The translations under genes were made by a program, and so were the position numbers. Below, in pieces: positions 15,745 to 61,225 of a stretch of DNA of 64,000 nucleotides; positions within the stretch are counted from its first letter, which is position 1, and every line of letters begins with the position of its first letter. The DNA is from Aurantiochytrium sp. KH105 (lineage: Eukaryota; Sar; Bigyra; Thraustochytrida; Thraustochytriidae), in assembly GCA_003116975.1 (NCBI GenBank), contig BGKB01000003.1, forward strand, positions 62,001 to 126,000. The letters are read 5' to 3'. The notes beneath the pieces were generated by a model that was not told the origin of the DNA, searched no databases, and saw only the letters and a list, made by a program, of their open reading frames with translations.

Positions 15745-15956
15745 GCCGAGAGCAAGAACACCTTTTTCCCTCCCTTTAGCTTTGTCTCCGCGAATCAGAT
15801 AAAAGCGAGGGGGAGGAGGAGGAGGCGAGCGGCGAAGAAAAGTTGATTGGTTCATAAAACAATCGCCCTGAAGGACCTCTTCTCCAAACCCCGCTCAAAT
15901 TTCTCGGACCGTCAGTCGTCTTGCACGCGCCCACCCTCTCTGAGAGGCCACCCACC

Positions 15957-18917
15957 ATGGGCACAGCCAGAAGTAAACCGAAAACGATCTCCCCGTCTCA
16001 GCCCGAGGAAGCAAAACCGGTTGTGGATGCTGGCAGCGTAGCCCGAGAGAATGAGTCGCTCAAGGCTGCTCGCGCCCAGCTCGAAAATGCTAACGCAGAG
16101 CTCAAGCACATTCTCGAACAAACCAAAGAAGAAAATAAGCGACGTCTGCAAGAGGTTGAAAATCACAAGTGTAAAATTGCCAGTCTGACGGTGGAAATTA
16201 ATCAGCTCAAGTCCGGCGAAGACGACACCTGGGAAGCCGGCGGCGCGCCGTATCTCCGACACCTCAAGGCTTCACCGGGCGACAAACGCGTGTCGGCACC
16301 CAAGGACGCAGCGTTTACAATGAGTCGACACAACATTAACAAGCGCGTGTCGGCGGCGCTCTCAAGCAGCCTCGCGAGCAGTAGCACCAGCGGCGCAAGC
16401 AGCTTTGGTGGCACCAAGTCCAACAATGATACGTACAATCGGGGCCCATCTCGCATTGCAAAACAACTGAACCTGCATCTTCGAGGGAAAAAGTCCAAAC
16501 AGAGCGTCGCCTTTAGCAGCCTCGACTCGAATACAAACATGGATCAGCCCGGAGGGGGCCCTCAGTCCGTCTATCATTTGCCTCGTGGCGGGGTCTACGT
16601 GCATACCAAAGCCGGACCGGTGCAATTTGGTATTCCGCCAGAGACGGTCAAGGACAGCATGAACTTGGGTCTCGAAGTTCCGACCTTGTTCGTTGTCCCT
16701 CGCGAGAGATTTAATATGCAGGCTGGAATCAACGTGAGCGAGATTGAGTTCCCAGCGTTCTTCAACTTCTTCGTGAGAAAGAGGCAAATGACGCTCATCA
16801 CGTACCAGGACTGCTCCGAAGATCTCTTGACCATAATGAAGGAAGCCCTCGATGGTCCCGACGAGGACCAGCTCTACATCAACGAAGAGTACTCTCGCTT
16901 TGCTTCCGAGGACGTGTTGGCTGCGCGGCCTGATCACGTCAAGGAAATGGCTGTCTTTTGCGAACCTCGGCCAGGAACGCCGGCCATCAAGGTTTCAAAC
17001 CTTGTCAAATTTGCTTATTTCAATGCACTTGGGGAGTGCCGGCTTGATAACGACGTAGTGATCAAGGATGAGTCCTTTGGGTTTACGGTCTTGCAGGAGG
17101 ATACGCTTCTTGCGGCTATTTCTGACGACGAGGCGAGCAGTTGCTTTTTCCCTGGCATGGACCCGACTACAGCCGTTCCTCGACAACCTGCATCCTTGGG
17201 TGTTCTCGGCGCGGACGATGATCCTGAAAATTCCGTGATGTCTTCGCCAAGCGCGACGCTGGAGACACCAATATCAAACTTTAGCATTCCGCGCTTCGGA
17301 ATGACGATTCTGGGTAATTCGCACGGTTTCGACGCTCTTGGCTCGACGTCTGGCTTTGTCATCTGGATCAATGGCCAGGGCATCATGGTGGACCCGCCAC
17401 CGCACAGCGGCGAATTCCTGAAAATGAATGGCATTCAGCCCAAGCTCATCACTGCAACCATTCTTACGCACTGCCATGCCGATCATGACGCAGGAACAAT
17501 CCAGAAAGTCATTACTGAGGACAAGGTCACGCTCATGACGACCAAGACAATTTTTCAGTCCTTGCTACGCAAGTACAGCGGTGTCGCGGGCCTCGGATCA
17601 GACTTTCTGCGCCAGCTCGTCAACTTTCGTCCCGTTTTTGTCGAAGAGCCAACGTACTGGGGTGGGGCCTCGTTTCGATTCTTTTACTCCTTGCACGCCA
17701 TTCCGTGCGTCGGCTTTGAGGTCACCTTTGAAGGCAAGAGTATGGTGTATTCGGCAGACACCTTTTACGAGCCCAAAGGTCTCGAGGAGATGCATGAACG
17801 TGGTGTGCTCAGTCGGGCCCGTTGCGACGCTCTGCTCAACTTTCCATGGCACAGCGACCTGGTCTTGCACGAGGCAGGTGTTCCGCCGATCCACACGCCG
17901 ATTTCGGCGTTTGACAGCCTCCCACCCGAACATCGAGCCAACATCCAGCTCATTCATATTGGCAACAAAGACCAGGCCAATGCGATTGCTGCAGGCCTCA
18001 AGGTGAGTCAACCCGGACTCGAAAATACCGCGGTGCTCATCGCAAACACCGACACGCAAGATACACTGCGATTTATGCAGCTTATCGCGGGCGTCGATAT
18101 ATTCCGCGGGTTCCCGATCCCACAGGCCCTGGAGCTACTACTCATGTCCACCAACGTTGACTACCAGCCCGGACAGATTATTGCGGAAAAGGGCACTCCT
18201 GGCGACAAGTTTATGGTCATAATGTCTGGCGAAGCTTCCGTTTCATTCGGAAAGACCAAAAAGATCTTCAAGGTAGGAGACTACCTGGGCGAGATCTCCG
18301 TCATTACAGGTGAGGACCGTACGGCGACGATTGTGGCAGAAACTGCATGCACGATTGTCGAGGTTGACAAGTACGCGTTCCACTACTTTCTCATGAAGGA
18401 CAAGAAGCTTTACGCAAAAATGGAGTGCCTCGTGCGAAGTCGCATGGATGGAAGCTGGCACGCCATTGCCCGCAACTCGCTGCTTCGTCGACTGTCTGCT
18501 GCGCAAAAGACGAGCTTGCAAGCCTTTCTTCACCGCCGGCAGTTTAAGCGAGGAGACGAAGTCTGGCGCAAGGGCAGCACGGGCCACGGTGCAGTGCTGA
18601 TTCTATCCGGCGACTTTGTCTTTGAGGAGGTACACAATGCCGATCCCTTTGAGCTTCTGACGGCGACGCGGCATCCGCATCAGAAGCGAGCTCACATGGC
18701 ACAGGAATCCGAGTCTCTTTCCTTTGACCCTCTCACTACCGGGTGTTTTGTTTGCGATCTTTTTGCCATGAGCGCCAATGCAGAACTTACGGTCACACTC
18801 AAGTGCGACTCGGATGAGGGCGTCCTGTTCTACATTACGCAGGAAAATGTTCTTGGTTTCCTCGATGCGAATCCCATGACGCTTCTGACTCTCTTGAAGA
18901 CGATCGTCATCCTCTAG
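15957..18917 (+). CDS. Metallo-beta-lactamase-fold hydrolase with cyclic-nucleotide-binding domains
   Basis: A 986-aa protein starting at the ATG at 15957 (CCACCATGGG). The N-terminus MGTARS fits an N-myristoylation signal (Gly2, Ser6), followed by a coiled coil at about residues 28-85 and a Ser-rich linker. The metallo-beta-lactamase domain starts near FGMTILGNSHGFDALG and has the zinc motif THCHADHD at 504-511, a metal-bridging Asp in YSADTF near 600 and a late His in LIHIGNK near 666. The first cNMP-binding domain (about 735-815) carries the phosphate-binding-cassette pattern GEISVITGEDRTATIV with its Arg. A second, more degenerate cNMP-like fold follows from about 830. Dictyostelium GbpA/GbpB-type class II-like cyclic-nucleotide phosphodiesterases combine the same domains, so a membrane-tethered, cNMP-regulated phosphodiesterase is the leading inference. 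Confidence 0.85.
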   Translation: MGTARSKPKTISPSQPEEAKPVVDAGSVARENESLKAARAQLENANAELKHILEQTKEENKRRLQEVENHKCKIASLTVEINQLKSGEDDTWEAGGAPYLRHLKASPGDKRVSAPKDAAFTMSRHNINKRVSAALSSSLASSSTSGASSFGGTKSNNDTYNRGPSRIAKQLNLHLRGKKSKQSVAFSSLDSNTNMDQPGGGPQSVYHLPRGGVYVHTKAGPVQFGIPPETVKDSMNLGLEVPTLFVVPRERFNMQAGINVSEIEFPAFFNFFVRKRQMTLITYQDCSEDLLTIMKEALDGPDEDQLYINEEYSRFASEDVLAARPDHVKEMAVFCEPRPGTPAIKVSNLVKFAYFNALGECRLDNDVVIKDESFGFTVLQEDTLLAAISDDEASSCFFPGMDPTTAVPRQPASLGVLGADDDPENSVMSSPSATLETPISNFSIPRFGMTILGNSHGFDALGSTSGFVIWINGQGIMVDPPPHSGEFLKMNGIQPKLITATILTHCHADHDAGTIQKVITEDKVTLMTTKTIFQSLLRKYSGVAGLGSDFLRQLVNFRPVFVEEPTYWGGASFRFFYSLHAIPCVGFEVTFEGKSMVYSADTFYEPKGLEEMHERGVLSRARCDALLNFPWHSDLVLHEAGVPPIHTPISAFDSLPPEHRANIQLIHIGNKDQANAIAAGLKVSQPGLENTAVLIANTDTQDTLRFMQLIAGVDIFRGFPIPQALELLLMSTNVDYQPGQIIAEKGTPGDKFMVIMSGEASVSFGKTKKIFKVGDYLGEISVITGEDRTATIVAETACTIVEVDKYAFHYFLMKDKKLYAKMECLVRSRMDGSWHAIARNSLLRRLSAAQKTSLQAFLHRRQFKRGDEVWRKGSTGHGAVLILSGDFVFEEVHNADPFELLTATRHPHQKRAHMAQESESLSFDPLTTGCFVCDLFAMSANAELTVTLKCDSDEGVLFYITQENVLGFLDANPMTLLTLLKTIVIL

Positions 18918-29402: not shown

Positions 29403-30095
29403 CTAAGCATAGTACAAGCCTCCTGGGTCCTCGTGATGTACAGGCTGCGGAACAACGCGAACGACAAAGGCAAAGAGCATGATCGTGTCCGCAAGCGAGA
29501 GGCTTACAAAGACGCAGTACGTTCGCAGCACTGCTGTGACCTCCTCAATAATATAGGTCGCAAGATACTCCTTGCAGGTGTCTTCAAACGAGCAGCGAGC
29601 TGCCTCTGGGTTTTGAAGCTCGTCCTCGATCGAGTCATATCCACAGCATCGGCCATCATTCTGAATTTGAGAAACGAAAGCAAAATAGTCGGCTGCATCG
29701 CTACCGCCAGCCACCACATTCTCCATTACCCTTTCCCATCCCCTCTTGATCTCAAATTCCTGCACTCGAAGCTGATCTGGATTTCGTGCGCCTGCGACGA
29801 GGATCGCGCAGACGAATTGAAATACCCCGAGCAACACACTTGCAAACAAATATACCTTGAGAAGTCCTCGATGGCGTGCAAGCGCTGCAAAGAGACCCAT
29901 GACGCTGTTTGCTGCAATAACTCCAGCACAAAGAGCAACCAGGGACCCGGTGCTTCCGCCAGCAGTGTACACGACGGAGAAGAGAACCTCGTGGTTCATG
30001 TAGTACAATGATTGAGCAATGGCAAAGCATGACACTACGAATTGAACAACGCATGAGCCCATGAGCAACAGCTTGTTACACGCAAGGCTCTGCAT
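29403..30095 (-). CDS. Tetraspanin-like membrane protein
   Basis: A 230-aa protein; ATG at 30095. Four membrane helices in tetraspanin order: TM1 from residue 9, TM2 and TM3 close together (about 45-72 and 80-102), and TM4 near 190-212, separated by one large extracellular loop of about 85 residues. That loop holds the signature GRCCGYDS plus two further cysteines (ARCSFEDTC), the pattern that makes the paired disulphides of tetraspanins. Length is typical of the family. Tetraspanins organise membrane microdomains; the partner proteins here are unknown. It stands alone, about 300 bp from the next plus-strand gene. Confidence 0.85.
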   Translation of the reverse strand: MQSLACNKLLLMGSCVVQFVVSCFAIAQSLYYMNHEVLFSVVYTAGGSTGSLVALCAGVIAANSVMGLFAALARHRGLLKVYLFASVLLGVFQFVCAILVAGARNPDQLRVQEFEIKRGWERVMENVVAGGSDAADYFAFVSQIQNDGRCCGYDSIEDELQNPEAARCSFEDTCKEYLATYIIEEVTAVLRTYCVFVSLSLADTIMLFAFVVRVVPQPVHHEDPGGLYYA

Positions 30096-31411: not shown

Positions 31412-33736
31412 CTAAGGGGCCGAGTCCGACGGCCCAGACTTTGCAGCTGGCTCGGAACGTGTTGTGAGCGCTCCGTCAACAACGCCGACGTTCATTTCCT
31501 CGGTACTCTCGGGAAAGGCGCCGTCCGCTGCTCCGGCCGTTTTCGGGCTTGTCGGCTCGCTTGTCTTGGGCCCTGGGCGCCTTAAGCGAGAAGTAAATGT
31601 CTTGACAATGCGGACAATCTTGTACGGGTCCACGGAAGGACCTTCATCGCCGACGAGCGCGGCATCCTCTTCAAGCTTCTTCCTCGCAATTGCAGCCTTT
31701 TTGAAGTTTCGAAGATTCTGCGCGTGCGAGGATTTAAGGAAGCGCGGAAAATTATCTCGCTCCAGCTGCTTGTAAATCTCTTGGCGCGCTTCGTCATAGA
31801 GGTCCAAACGATACGCAAGACCATCGAATTTGAGAATCCTGCGGCGCTGAGAGTCGTTGATATTAACCTGGAACTGGCCATGCTCGTCAATGTACCGCCT
31901 GACCATCGACTCGTGCATGTTATTGATGACACCCCATCGCGCCTTGTACGCGTCAACCTGCTCCACGAAAAGCAAGCTTTCCACAGCAAATTCAGAGGTC
32001 AAAAACACCTTGAAGAATGTGAGACTCTGCTTGTCCTCAAAGAGATTTTCAAATGACTTGAGCGAATCGATCTGCTCGTCGTCAATCGTGCCCATGGCTC
32101 GGCGCAGCTCGGGATCCTCGCGAACATCGAGGGCACTATCTTGATGAAGAAGGCGATTTTGCGTCGACGACGATGGGTGCACCTTTGCATCTGCGCTTTC
32201 CACCTTTCCAGCAGGATGATCATCCTCCTTGGCATCGACCTTGAAAAACGTAATGAGCTGGTCCATAACGGTGTCGATAAAATGACTCTCCAGCATTGAC
32301 TCGTCATCGGCAGCATCTTGCTTTTCATCGTCTTCCTTCGAGAGCAAATACAGGGTGCGAGCAAGTTTGCGAACAACCATGGTAGTTTTTCGGATTGGGC
32401 GAACCACATTTTGATGCACATCCCGATTGAAAAAGAAGGACGAGAGAGCCATGAGAGACGTGAGGACGCACGTCAGTATAATGTTGAGTTTGGCTTGGGC
32501 TTGCTCAAAGAGAGTTTCGTCGAGGACAGCGACACTGTCAGCGTCGGTAATTGCATAAACGAGGTAGTCGTCTCTTGCAGATCCTCTGAGGACTTCGTTG
32601 ACAAACTTGGTCTCGTTCTTGACAATAAGCTCGACGAGATACTCTTTCTGTTGCTCGATATAAGCGCTCTCTAAAGAGGTGTAGACGGGCGACGTCTCGT
32701 TCCCGGTTTCAAAGGACAACTCGAGTAGCTCGAGGCCGTACTCCGCCGAGCTGTCGACCCGACTCACCTCGAGATACGGAAGGACCAAAAGGAGTAGGAT
32801 CGTCCCAAGGATGACACGCTTGCCAAGCAGATCGGCCAGACGAAGGCCAAGCTTGTTGGGTGCTTGCGTGTGAGCGTCACCTTTGGAAGATAGATACCTC
32901 CGGGTGAGATGCGAGCGCAAGATTCGAATAAGGCGAAAGATGCGCATGAGGCGCGCAAAGCGGACGATGCGGAGGAGGCGCAGCGCTCGGGACGTCCGCG
33001 TCCCTGTGCGGACAAGACGGCCTGCTCGGAGAATGGCGAGATTGTCTTGCTCGTCCGTACTCGCAATAGCGCTGTCATTGCCAATAATCTTATCCCAGAT
33101 AAAACTGATGTCGGGGATTAGGCTAATGAGCGCCACCACGTCGAGAAAGAAAAAGAACGACAAAATGTACCCTTCGCGGTACATTGAATTCAGGGCCAGC
33201 TCAAAGGTAAAGAGAAGCAAGGTGACGAACATGAGGTCGTCCAGCACATAATCCGTCTCGATCGAGCCATAAATGACAAAGAGATCGGGCGCAAACAGCG
33301 CAGAGAGCGTCGCCAAAAAGATGAGAAATTGGACCCATTTTGAGTCGAGGAAGCCCACGACAGAGAACTGTCTCGCCGACCTCTTTCCGCCAGCATCGTC
33401 CTTTCCGGATTTAGACTTGAGACCTGCAGCTGTTGCATACGCATTCTTTCCAAAGGATGCGTCGCCTTTCGCCGCAAATGGCGCCAGGATCGCACGTTTG
33501 ATCTTATGCGCACCTCCGTTTGATCCCCTGCGTCCGCTGCTGGTTAGAGGCGATCCAATGCTTTTCATGCTCGAGAAAATGCTAGATCTCCGTACTTCAG
33601 CGACCGTGGCGCGCACTTCTTCTTCAATTTCCTGGGGCGTCTTTTTCTTGCGTTTCCCGGATGAGGTGGCGTCGCCGATCGAGGGAAGGTCGTCATCTTG
33701 AGCAGGCGAGACTGTGCCACCAGGGGGCGTGGCCAT
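31412..33736 (-). CDS. Voltage-sensor-like transmembrane protein fused to RGS domain
   Basis: A 774-aa protein; ATG at 33736. After a basic cytosolic N-terminus come four helices like a voltage-sensor module: S1 about 134-156, S2 163-185 (with acidic residues), S3 191-212 (Asp199), and an S4 with Arg at 237, 240, 243, 247, 250, then every third residue to 274. A fifth helix (about 307-324) leads into an outside loop of about 90 residues with two NET/NET-type glycosylation sites. A sixth helix (about 416-437) is followed by a VVRPIRK linker of the HAMP/P-type kind. The C-terminal part is an RGS domain (about 558-675: FENLFEDKQSLTFFKVFLTSEFAVESLLFVEQV). No pore loop is visible. RGS domains speed GTP hydrolysis by G-alpha; a voltage- or ligand-gated G-protein regulator is inferred. 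Confidence 0.8.
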   Translation of the reverse strand: MATPPGGTVSPAQDDDLPSIGDATSSGKRKKKTPQEIEEEVRATVAEVRRSSIFSSMKSIGSPLTSSGRRGSNGGAHKIKRAILAPFAAKGDASFGKNAYATAAGLKSKSGKDDAGGKRSARQFSVVGFLDSKWVQFLIFLATLSALFAPDLFVIYGSIETDYVLDDLMFVTLLLFTFELALNSMYREGYILSFFFFLDVVALISLIPDISFIWDKIIGNDSAIASTDEQDNLAILRAGRLVRTGTRTSRALRLLRIVRFARLMRIFRLIRILRSHLTRRYLSSKGDAHTQAPNKLGLRLADLLGKRVILGTILLLLVLPYLEVSRVDSSAEYGLELLELSFETGNETSPVYTSLESAYIEQQKEYLVELIVKNETKFVNEVLRGSARDDYLVYAITDADSVAVLDETLFEQAQAKLNIILTCVLTSLMALSSFFFNRDVHQNVVRPIRKTTMVVRKLARTLYLLSKEDDEKQDAADDESMLESHFIDTVMDQLITFFKVDAKEDDHPAGKVESADAKVHPSSSTQNRLLHQDSALDVREDPELRRAMGTIDDEQIDSLKSFENLFEDKQSLTFFKVFLTSEFAVESLLFVEQVDAYKARWGVINNMHESMVRRYIDEHGQFQVNINDSQRRRILKFDGLAYRLDLYDEARQEIYKQLERDNFPRFLKSSHAQNLRNFKKAAIARKKLEEDAALVGDEGPSVDPYKIVRIVKTFTSRLRRPGPKTSEPTSPKTAGAADGAFPESTEEMNVGVVDGALTTRSEPAAKSGPSDSAP

Positions 33737-34665
33737 TGTACTAGGCTAGATATGACCAGCGCGCGTTTGATGGCGTCGATAGCGATGTGATCACAGCCAC
33801 GACAACGCTTGCCGTGCTGAGCTCCAAGGAGCAGTCTCCGTCCACACGTGAATTCTGCAGCCCGTGCACAACGCCGCTACCTTTTTGCACTATGATCTCC
33901 TAAAACACGGCAAGCCGAGCCTCTCATTTCACGGGGATGAGGGGGCGCAGCCTCGCTAGTTTGCTTCGCTGGATGCGTCGCGTTAAAGTACATATTGTCC
34001 GTGTCAAAAGCGTCACATCAAGCGTGCAACGTGATGAGCATAGTAGCATTATCATAGAAAATTTATCCGTTTGGCCACTTTGCGACTTCGATTCGGGACT
34101 TCAACTCGAACTCGCTGTCAGAAGACTCGAAGCGTCCTGCTTATTGATAGCAGTCGCCATGGTACGAAACGGACCTAGGCGAGTCCCGAGGCTCTCACTG
34201 TCAGTTTACTAATTGTAAGAAAGAAAAGCTCAGCCCACGTGAACTTGAAGTTTTTGCAACGGGCCGTTAGACCACTTGCGTGGCAGTAAGCCGTACTTTG
34301 TTTCGACAGAAATGGTGGTTTTGTAGCATGGAACTTCCTTTTGCTTGAGGAGTGTGAGGAGCAAGTTTGAGCATGGTTGGGTGAATTACAAGGACAGAGG
34401 CAGGAGCAAGCGAGCAGAAAAGTGAGGGGTGTTCATGGCACGCCATATCATGTTAGTTAGCACACCGTGTATCCTTTTCTCTCTTTATCTTTTTTTTTTT
34501 TGTTCAATAAAAGCTTCATCATTCTCTCCTCTGCAGTTCGGGAAGTCTACGTAACTCTCTTACCTTCGAGGCTGCGGCCGCTGGACCTTGACTTGAACCG
34601 TCCGCGAAGCTGCCTCGACGGGCAAGCGGACGCTCGTGGACGGGCAAAGGGGAAAGAGCTCTGCA
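33737..34665. promoter_or_regulatory. Divergent intergenic region with possible intron acceptor
   Basis: Upstream region of the voltage-sensor/RGS gene and of the EGF-like gene. A pyrimidine tract ending in CTCTGCAG (about 34478-34536) looks like a 3' splice site, preceded by an ATG at 34435 whose first codons encode a signal-like MARHIMLVSTPCILFSLYLFFF. I could not build an in-frame join to the downstream gene. One isolated CACTTGCG lies at 34273. Confidence 0.4.
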
Positions 34666-35748
34666 ATGCTATGCAGAAACCACACAGGCAGTGAGGATGA
34701 TGACCGTCTGACATTTGAAATCTGTGTCCATGGAACTTGCAACGCCAGTGGGGTTTGCGAGTGCTTTGAAGGCTTTGAGCACCTTCAAGTTTTCACCTTT
34801 AATACGCTCTGCGACATTGCTTCAACGCGCAAGACCATCATTCTTGTCACTCTCGGATTCCTTTGCAGCATCACCGCAGCCATTGCATTACAGAGTTTGA
34901 TAGTCCGCCAGAGTAGCACATTTGTGCGCGGGGCCGCAACCGCCGCTGCGTGGACTGGTCTTCTGTCCAGCTTATTCTTTTATTTACTCGCCGGGACACG
35001 GTCGGCAACTCCGTTCACGTTTGCTCTTCTTTACGCCAGTATAGCAACAGGCATTTACATGGCTTGTCTTTTGGTGATGGGACTCGTACAACCAATTCAT
35101 AGACTTTCGGGGAAACGCCTGCATTGGTTCCGTAAAGAGCGCTTGCGGCGTCTTATCTATATCGAAGCTTTGGCCTTTCTGATTCTTGAGATCATCGCCA
35201 GCATCGCCTACAAGCGAAACATCCGCGGAAAATTAATGCTTCGTGTCACACTCACTGTCTATGTGATCAACGCAACGGTCGGGTTGTACATCTTTTGGTT
35301 ACTCAAGGCCGCATCTCGCGTCCTTGCTGATAATCTGAATGCAAATCTGCAGCAGGTGCCCCCAGGTGACGTTGCTACCGAGAACCGCGTCGTTCGATTT
35401 ACCATGCGTATTCAAAATCACCGGAAGTTTGCGCAATTTATCGCGTTCGGGCTATGTGCCATCGCCTGCATTGGAATTGCAGGTGGTGCTCTGGGATATG
35501 TGATTCCAGAGGAGGTGTCCGTGTATTCCTGCGTTAACATACCTTTTCTAGTGCTTTTGCCAACTCTATTATTTGTAGATGACGTGCCACTTTTCCCCCG
35601 TAGGTCACGGACGATCCTTCCCAAGAAGAGTTATTTGAAGGAGCTCAATCGCTCCAAGAGTCATTCTGGTGGACAATCACACGACCGAATAAAGATAGGT
35701 GCTTCAAGTCTGGTCCTTTCTACCCAATCCGTGGAAGCAACAGATTGA
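34666..35748 (+). CDS. Multi-pass membrane protein with N-terminal EGF-like motif
   Basis: From the ATG at 34666 the product is 360 aa; the open frame extends 10 codons upstream to a GTG. It begins with a cysteine cluster CVHGTCNASGVCECFEGFE that has EGF-like spacing (CxxGxC x4 GxCxCxxGF), then about seven hydrophobic segments between residues 55 and 300 (including TIILVTLGFLCSITAAIAL, AAAWTGLLSSLFFYLLAG, ALLYASIATGIYMACLLVMG, YIEALAFLILEIIASIA and FIAFGLCAIACIGIAGGALGYV) and a basic, Ser-rich tail. EGF-like domains are extracellular, yet no signal peptide precedes it, so a 5' exon is probably missing from this model. The seven-helix count suggests a receptor-like fold, but no GPCR motif is recognised. 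Confidence 0.6.
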   Translation: MLCRNHTGSEDDDRLTFEICVHGTCNASGVCECFEGFEHLQVFTFNTLCDIASTRKTIILVTLGFLCSITAAIALQSLIVRQSSTFVRGAATAAAWTGLLSSLFFYLLAGTRSATPFTFALLYASIATGIYMACLLVMGLVQPIHRLSGKRLHWFRKERLRRLIYIEALAFLILEIIASIAYKRNIRGKLMLRVTLTVYVINATVGLYIFWLLKAASRVLADNLNANLQQVPPGDVATENRVVRFTMRIQNHRKFAQFIAFGLCAIACIGIAGGALGYVIPEEVSVYSCVNIPFLVLLPTLLFVDDVPLFPRRSRTILPKKSYLKELNRSKSHSGGQSHDRIKIGASSLVLSTQSVEATD

Positions 35749-59415: not shown

Positions 59416-60909
59416 TTAAATTGTTTGCATCTGGTCCGAATTGGACTTTGACGGGGACTTCTGTCCTCCCCGTGCCGAAGCCGAAGTTTCCTGCATTTCC
59501 AAGCCAAACTCCTCGCGATGCTCATCCTCGTTAAAGAAATGGTCCTCGTCGAGAGGATCTTCGACGTCGTCGTTAGCGACACGACGGCTTGGGACGTAGT
59601 CGTCGTCGTCCTCAAGACCATACTCTCCATCTTCAGCAGGCAGCTTGAGGTAAGCGCTACCTTCCACAGGTCGAAAGAGGTAGCCAATGACACCATAAAA
59701 GAGAACAGAGGCTGTCTCGCGCAAAATGTGTGCGACATAGAGGTGACGAAAATTCATAGCATTTCCAGCAAGGAAAACGATGATGCGAGTAAAGTAAATG
59801 TACGCAAAGACGAGCAGATAAAAGCGGCGAAACTGCCTGAGCTTGGCCAAGTTGACCTGACCCTTGCCGTCAATCTGCGACTGACTCTCGAGGAACTGAA
59901 TGTGCGAGTAAATGGGAAAAGTCACCGCCAAGCAGCAGACGAGGTCCACAAGTTGAAAGGCGTTCTCCCACTTCATCATCGCCGAAGACCCGCGCGTAAG
60001 CTCGTCCGCAACCACCAAGGCAATGTTGGCCACCACTTGCAGCGAAAACGCGGCCATGAGGAACTTGCGCTCGCGAGGGCTCAGCGCAGGCTTCAGCAGA
60101 GACCAGCCCGTGCCAATCATAATGATGACGACAAAGAACATGATGGTGCGCAGTGCGCGCAGCAAATGATACAAAAAGTTCCACGTCACCGACGACCCAT
60201 ATACCTTGACGTAATGCATGTCAAAGGCCTCCGCAAAGACCGTCAACGTCTTGAGCAGCAAAATCACCGTCATCATGTGATGAACCTTGTGCACGCTCAG
60301 CTTCTTCCGCTTCAGATACGTAATCCAGGCGACGAGCATGCCGAGGAAAACGAGACCATAGAGGAAGAGAATAGTCGGCGTCGGCATCTCGCCCGCCGTC
60401 AGGTAGTTCGGTCCCGCATTGTACATTTCCGTGTGCAGCGTGTACGATGCGCCAACATCTGGGCCGCAGCGCACAAACGAGAGGTCGTAGATTCCCTCCG
60501 TGGCCAGATCAACCTCGTGCGAAATAACCTTTGACAGGGGAAGGGGCTCTTCTCCCTTGAACTCAATGATGCCAATCAACTGCAGTTCGCGCTGCTTGTC
60601 GATCGGGCATTCACGGATCGCGTCCGTCGAGTATTCTTCTCTAATTTCCTCGTGAAAAGCGTCGAGAACCATGTTTTCCGAGTCTGCGAGGTGCAAGAGA
60701 AAAGCGGCACGTGACCCCTTGACTTTGCTGCTAAAGGAAAAGTCCTTCACCTCGATGTCTACCTTGCCCCCCTGCACCAGGCCAAACTGCTCCACGGCGT
60801 ACCACCTCCGCGACTCGTCCGAGGCGCTAATGTCGACCTTGAGCCCAGACGCGCACACTGCCATGCTCAGCGCGAGCGAGGCGCCCAGCATCATCTTGAC
60901 GCCCGTCAT
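59416..60909 (-). CDS. GPR107/GPR108-type seven-transmembrane protein (lung 7-TM family)
   Basis: A 497-aa protein. ATG at 60909 (MTGVKMML) starts a signal peptide cleaved near CASG; the open frame upstream to 61014 begins with GTG. A luminal beta-rich domain of about 180 residues (with CPIDKQ and RCGPD cysteines) precedes seven helices from about residue 198 (PTPTILFLYGLVFLGMLVAW; VHHMMTVILLLKTLTVFAEA; ALRTIMFFVVIIMIGTGWSLLKPALSPRER; IALVVADE; YLLVFAYIYFTRIIVFL). The GTGWSLLKP-x-LSxRE motif is characteristic of the GPR107/GPR108/plant CAND family. The tail is acidic (DDDDYVPS, DEDHFFNEDE). Family members act in Golgi traffic and endocytosis; G-protein coupling is disputed. Divergent from IDO; the shared region holds the phased CACTT array. 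Confidence 0.92.
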   Translation of the reverse strand: MTGVKMMLGASLALSMAVCASGLKVDISASDESRRWYAVEQFGLVQGGKVDIEVKDFSFSSKVKGSRAAFLLHLADSENMVLDAFHEEIREEYSTDAIRECPIDKQRELQLIGIIEFKGEEPLPLSKVISHEVDLATEGIYDLSFVRCGPDVGASYTLHTEMYNAGPNYLTAGEMPTPTILFLYGLVFLGMLVAWITYLKRKKLSVHKVHHMMTVILLLKTLTVFAEAFDMHYVKVYGSSVTWNFLYHLLRALRTIMFFVVIIMIGTGWSLLKPALSPRERKFLMAAFSLQVVANIALVVADELTRGSSAMMKWENAFQLVDLVCCLAVTFPIYSHIQFLESQSQIDGKGQVNLAKLRQFRRFYLLVFAYIYFTRIIVFLAGNAMNFRHLYVAHILRETASVLFYGVIGYLFRPVEGSAYLKLPAEDGEYGLEDDDDYVPSRRVANDDVEDPLDEDHFFNEDEHREEFGLEMQETSASARGGQKSPSKSNSDQMQTI

Positions 60910-61225
60910 CTTGGACGCCGACGTCGACCGCCGCCTCACGGCCACCTCGGAGTCCACGCCTCTCGCGCGCTTTTCCCTCGCGTCGCCCTCGCCTTGCTTG
61001 TCCTCGTTGCGCACCTCAACCGCGATGACACGCTGGAGTTACTCGCGCTCGCCGCGACTCCTCTCTTCGTACGCGGGGTCGCGAACGGGGCAGAGGGCAG
61101 CAGAGGCGAGCGGCCGGCGCCGGCGGCGCGCGGCGGGCGGGCGGGCAGGCGGGCGGACGGCCAGGCCTCGGCGGCTCGCGCGGCAGCGGCGCCGGGCGAG
61201 GGTCGTTCTTTCGAGGACGGAGGCG

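Follow-up and report, generated by a model that had tools for sequence, protein, structure and literature searches.

A pore-less voltage-sensor scaffold with an RGS domain in the output position

The window, the 64,000-nucleotide stretch of DNA analysed here, holds a gene (VSD-RGS; 31412-33736, minus strand) that joins a pore-less voltage-sensor domain (VSD) to a C-terminal RGS domain. Judged from its sequence, VSD-RGS is an output swap, in which RGS takes the place of a cyclase on a known scaffold; this reading follows from two VSD-cyclase relatives in the same genome that share the scaffold and from the fact that VSD-cyclases are an already described family. The VSD-cyclase scaffold is known, and what is new is that scaffold with an RGS output, a combination unnamed in the literature searched (no VSD-RGS protein appears in the titles and abstract openings of the papers that searches of the open-licence PMC literature listed). 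Our best explanation of the whole, to which we assign a probability of roughly 0.4, is that the protein would work as a voltage-set RGS that tunes the on-time of G-alpha. The original prediction had anticipated the VSD, the missing pore, the two-helix unit, the RGS output and the link to cyclases, all of which stand; its HAMP domain and its glycosylated loop, given as facts, do not.

The frame runs from ATG to stop without interruption (774 amino acids plus stop). C3 and C19 each carry the gene, and the two copies share 96% amino acid identity, with differences at 99 of 2,331 bases, no indels and equal frame length; the protein first noticed as a VSD-like part joined to RGS is thus one intact gene on two contigs. 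The assembly comprises 76.0 Mb in 367 contigs, gene matches in it are mostly paired, and a G-alpha gene lies about equally far from VSD-RGS on both C3 and C19. A PUFA-synthase model gives 24 matches in the assembly, all of them below its cut-off. On these grounds the eukaryotic genome seems to be kept as two haplotypes, C3 and C19 among them, with two homoeologous genomes as a possible alternative.

Elsewhere in the window, a divergent neighbour (34636-35748, plus strand) begins 900 bases from the VSD-RGS start and encodes 370 amino acids, in which about seven hydrophobic stretches can be counted by eye and an EGF-like domain matches weakly, short of the cut-off (E=0.026); it might be a receptor-like protein that shares a promoter region with VSD-RGS. 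The window also contains a tetraspanin gene (29403-30095, minus strand; Pfam E=6.5e-12), a 998-amino-acid frame with metallo-beta-lactamase-type and cNMP-binding domains (15921-18917, plus strand), and a GOST-type seven-helix protein with a CAND6-7 N-terminal domain (59416-61014, minus strand).

Voltage-sensor scaffold and its cyclase-bearing relatives

Following a mostly polar N-terminal part (residues 1-123; 33368-33736), VSD-RGS has an S1-S4 bundle (residues 124-282; 32891-33367), in which three hydrophobic helices, S1-S3, precede an arginine-rich S4 (residues 237-274; 32915-33028). The S4 ladder comprises 13 Arg, at 237, 240, 243, 247, 250 and then each third residue to 274, so that the approximately thirteen arginines at three-residue spacing counted at the outset are confirmed, with one step of four as the exception. 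Shuffling the segment (n=20,000) never gives a 13-Arg ladder, the best result being 9, and the longest ladder in shuffles of the whole protein (n=5,000) is 8. The Pfam Ion_trans check advised in the original prediction gives a divided answer: the match aligns to the S1-S4 half, but its 13.7 bits (E=0.037) fall below the cut-off of 25. The model represents a whole channel repeat, and the alignment covers no more than positions 2-113 of its 241. At E<=1, a profile made from the membrane parts of the three VSD genes of this genome (VSD-RGS and the two discussed below) retrieves Shaker K+ channel sequences and no others from the PDB, eight in number, with E values of 0.0016 to 0.0038 and alignments that span S2-S4. 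The F..E of S2 and the Asp of S3 (F176, E179, D199), which we take to be the charge-transfer and counter-charge residues around S4, are in register with Shaker and invariant among the three VSD genes, and Arg 250, 253, 256, 259 and 262 are invariant in all six sequences of these genes. Together, the 13-Arg S4, the Shaker matches and the register of the S2 and S3 residues bear out the proposed S1-S4-like bundle. A GYG/GFG selectivity filter is absent, by eye, from the 774 residues, and with Ion_trans limited to the S1-S4 half a channel pore is rejected, as had been claimed from the letters.

Beyond S4 lies the two-helix unit with an outside loop that the original prediction described: hydrophobic helices at residues 300-318 (TM5; within a post-S4 plus TM5 segment, residues 283-322, 32771-32890) and 417-435 (TM6) flank the TM5-TM6 loop (residues 323-412; 32501-32770), for which Pfam gives no ligand-binding domain. 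Sequons occur in the loop (N346, N374) and between S3 and S4 (N220); the other copy of the gene has Ser in place of N346, and glycosylation is therefore not established. TM6 and the VVRPIRK helix that follows it together span residues 413-470 (32327-32500). This PIxK helix-start motif is all that appears in place of the predicted HAMP/P-type linker: Pfam finds no HAMP match in VSD-RGS up to E=10, and a HAMP domain is accordingly rejected.

Queried with the VSD part, the genome returns six places, namely VSD-RGS and two other genes in two copies each (L003/L006 and L004/L005), the sole VSD relatives that this query finds. Both genes have the same S1-S4, TM5, TM6 and PIxK helix and end in a class III cyclase, not RGS; the cyclase scores 35.8 bits in L003 (cut-off 21.9) and, in L004, 22.2 bits in a frame truncated at the end of the locus and 33.8 bits for the full stretch, whereas PF00211 finds nothing in VSD-RGS up to E=10. 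Family listings for the genome are incomplete, the cyclase list containing neither L003 nor L006 and the Ion_trans list none of the three VSD genes. In L004 (1-3453, minus strand) the sequence GFCSIRNF stands where L003 reads GFCDIRNF, the Asp of which presumably binds metal in class III cyclases; because Ser replaces it, L004 may be catalytically inactive, or it may be a partner subunit.

The shared portion was delimited by comparing VSD-RGS with L003 and L004 segment by segment, with 300 shuffles for each comparison. The VSD scores 223 (L003) and 252 (L004), the post-S4/TM5 segment 41 and 67, and TM6 with the PIxK helix 69 and 64, values that no shuffle reaches, although for post-S4/TM5 the best L003 shuffle comes close at 39. 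Scores for the loop (41 and 32) are reached by 35 and 222 of the 300 shuffles, those for the linker (residues 471-557, 32066-32326; 36 and 36) by 54 and 125, and those for RGS (29 and 33) by 265 and 179. At the level of sequence, these comparisons establish homology between VSD-RGS and the cyclase genes from S1 to about residue 460-470, the loop excepted, and to nothing beyond. The RGS domain does occupy the output position, as had been supposed, since a cyclase sits in the same place in two related genes. In two collections, of viral and prokaryotic sequence, no relative was confirmed among the 27 stretches that the VSD-RGS protein retrieved from the viral collection, the 242 that the three-gene profile retrieved from it, or the 230 that the profile retrieved from the second collection.

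Among known proteins with a comparable plan, Ci-VSP has, to our knowledge, no TM5-loop-TM6 unit. It resembles VSD-RGS in its pore-less VSD and cytosolic signalling domain but has a lipid phosphatase as its output, and the ion channel-adenylyl cyclases of Paramecium, Tetrahymena and Plasmodium likewise combine a VSD with a cytosolic signalling domain but, unlike VSD-RGS, have a K+ channel pore and a cyclase output (PMC10651576). Section 4 of that source, a 2023 VSD review, covers voltage-gated channels, sNHE, a VSD-adenylyl cyclase with a K+ pore, Ci-VSP and VSOP/Hv1, and the outputs given there are ion pores, proton conduction, lipid phosphatase, exchanger and cyclase, with RGS unnamed (PMC10651576). 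Closest are the pore-less VSD-cyclases, which are described as a stramenopile/alveolate family and in which (PPTG_13136, PPTG_13761) an N-terminal pore-less VSD, a long interval and a C-terminal signalling domain are arranged as in VSD-RGS, the output being a class III cyclase rather than RGS (PMC12223298). The early hint that similar architectures feed cyclases is thus correct both for L003/L006 and L004/L005 and for the proteins described in Phytophthora; the Phytophthora proteins are likened to the VSD-RGS scaffold by description, through their domain spacing, and L003 and L004 are additionally homologous to it in the VSD, TM5, TM6 and PIxK helix. The 7TM-RGS proteins (AtRGS1; Naegleria 7TM-RGS) also place a membrane part before a C-terminal RGS, but this part is seven-helix and receptor-like (PMC9283941), whereas that of VSD-RGS is VSD-like with two more helices, and assignment to that class is rejected. 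Oomycete GPCR-bigrams, finally, share the combination of membrane sensor and C-terminal signalling domain, but their sensor is 7TM and the types named in the accessible text do not include RGS (PMC6033456).

RGS output in VSD-RGS and elsewhere in the genome

The identity of the C-terminal RGS domain (residues 558-675; 31712-32065), called in the original prediction, is certain: PF00615 matches residues 561-670 at 46.1 bits against a cut-off of 23.9 (E=7.6e-12), and the closest PDB match is RGS4 (E=1.3e-8). The first of the objections that the original prediction raised against itself, a lack of any RGS match in residues 558-675, therefore falls away. A C-terminal tail follows (residues 676-774; 31415-31711). 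At the RGS4 positions that we assume to contact G-alpha and to matter for GAP activity, VSD-RGS retains E83, E87, N128, D163 and R167, and has Ser587 for Asn88, Gln657 for Leu159 and Asn662 for Ser164. N88 is kept in 19 and L159 in 22 of the genome's 29 readable RGS rows (30 rows less L038, which gives no sensible alignment and is probably on the wrong strand), and the matching papers examined make no mention of N88S. Judged from these residues, G-alpha binding is plausible; GAP catalysis is less sure, and may be weak, because of the Ser and Gln at the Asn88 and Leu159 positions.

Potential partners are at hand. The genome has 89 RGS matches (87 above cut-off) and 46 G-alpha matches (27 above cut-off); T[ST]G[IV] and DVGGQR are present in every one of the 12 loci fetched from the latter, and G-alpha genes with the RGS-sensing glycine exist in this genome. 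Naegleria G-to-S mutants of this switch-1 glycine are reported to be unresponsive to RGS domains (PMC9283941). G-alpha triplets occur in both copies at G000:C314 10306-19683 with C245 46997-57288, where both copies of the middle match contain a single in-frame TGA, and at C38 415276-421855 with C160 103205-109880. A tree of 18 RGS domains leaves 14 of its 15 inner branches open, with none starred.

Intersection of the genome's match lists places RGS and Ion_trans in one frame in at least two further gene pairs. L057 (G000:C110:48700-56700, second copy on C33; 2,583 amino acids, Ion_trans in four stretches, RGS E=7.9e-15) and L058 (G000:C49:307300-316100, second copy on C90; 2,802 amino acids read out of a 2,878-amino-acid frame, Ion_trans in four stretches, RGS E=1.8e-6) are four-repeat and K+-channel-like, with GYG/GFG-type filters, a cNMP-binding domain and a C-terminal RGS; they presumably recall the CNGK channels of sperm, with RGS added. 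Nine other RGS frames were scanned, and four of them (L009, L015, L017, L038) have cNMP-binding domains, in two or three stretches ahead of RGS, which makes them possible cyclic-nucleotide-controlled RGS proteins. L030 has BAR and PH, and four frames match RGS alone, including L011, L013 and L020, which have 5 to 7 predicted hydrophobic helices and resemble 7TM-RGS. As far as domain content can tell, sensors of electrical or cyclic-nucleotide signals repeatedly have RGS as their output in this genome, and this recurrence makes the VSD-RGS gene more believable. The notion that any membrane protein with RGS would look the same is rejected: in the comparison set (30 of the 89 matches, L009-L038, several cut at locus ends, with the ladder checked in the multi-helix ones), the longest basic ladder is five steps, in L012, and is absent from its allele L011.

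Proposed mechanism, constraint and alternatives

We propose that the pore-less VSD scaffold common to the two VSD-cyclase genes bears RGS instead of cyclase and that its S4 would move with membrane voltage, the movement passing through the post-S4 stretch to TM5/TM6 and on to the PIxK helix. The protein is probably a dimer; class III cyclases act as dimers. A change in the PIxK helix could then alter how RGS meets membrane-bound G-alpha-GTP; RGS would deactivate G-alpha, membrane potential would tune the duration of the active state, and a second input could possibly come from the variable outside loop. RGS is best read as the controlled output because the related genes have an enzyme after the PIxK helix; mechanical coupling to RGS finds no support in the linker itself, which lacks homology to the cyclase genes.

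Changes between the C3 and C19 copies, scored by Nei-Gojobori, give an omega of 0.147 for the whole gene, 0.112 for the N-terminus, 0.089 for the VSD, 0 for the TM5 segment (0 N, 3 S) and for TM6 with the VVRPIRK helix (0 N, 7 S), 0.189 for the linker (3 N, 4 S), 0.03 for RGS (1 N, 8 S) and 0.201 for the C-terminal tail. The VSD and RGS halves are both under purifying selection. The loop stands apart in having 13 N against 4 S changes, for an omega of 0.918; it is not clearly under purifying selection, and its omega fits relaxed constraint and diversifying selection alike. Set against the remainder of the gene (20 N, 61 S), the loop gives a Fisher p of 9e-5, an optimistic value because the region was picked after the omegas had been seen.

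This fast-changing loop (13 N vs 4 S) would be the business end of the protein if VSD-RGS were a ligand-operated receptor, similar to AtRGS1 but with another membrane part, in which a ligand docks on the loop and the VSD serves chiefly as an anchor. The other RGS fusions with 5-7 hydrophobic helices in the genome are consistent with such a design; the strong constraint on the S4 charges and their S2/S3 counter-charges, together with a loop that matches no Pfam ligand-binding domain, makes it unlikely. Signals could also run in reverse, with active G-alpha binding RGS and thereby altering the VSD or its leak current, or recruiting VSD-RGS, with little GAP activity, in the manner of RGS-RhoGEF-type effectors. 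We consider this doubtful: the substituted Asn88 and Leu159 positions would suit a reader of G-alpha, and a Naegleria RGS-RhoGEF is described as a candidate G-alpha effector (PMC9283941), but the RGS domain of VSD-RGS occupies the output-enzyme position of two related genes and its core retains E83, E87, N128, D163 and R167. Finally, voltage would be irrelevant if the scaffold did no more than keep a constitutive RGS in place, for instance at the flagellum. Anchoring would require neither the 13-Arg S4 nor the charge-transfer residues, which renders this reading distinctly improbable, even though a VSD-cyclase of Phytophthora zoospores is found mostly on one flagellum (PMC12223298) and dynein heavy chain frames are abundant in the genome. 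That two adjacent genes or an assembly error have been taken for one gene can be dismissed as highly improbable, since an uninterrupted frame of equal length and without indel on both C3 and C19 speaks against two genes, the linker has an omega of 0.189, and long unbroken genes are the norm in this genome, with frames of 4,181 amino acids or more around 36 of the 41 dynein matches.

If VSD-RGS is the voltage-set RGS that we favor, a single polypeptide would suffice to bring heterotrimeric G proteins under the influence of membrane potential, with no receptor involved, and the VSD-cyclase scaffold would be a modular sensor with an exchangeable output, a property that would open voltage control of VSD-cyclase-type proteins to direct assay. 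More tentatively, voltage may set the lifetime of active G-alpha as a new class of VSD output, in an organism that would have wired electrical, cyclic-nucleotide and G-protein signalling together by fusion.
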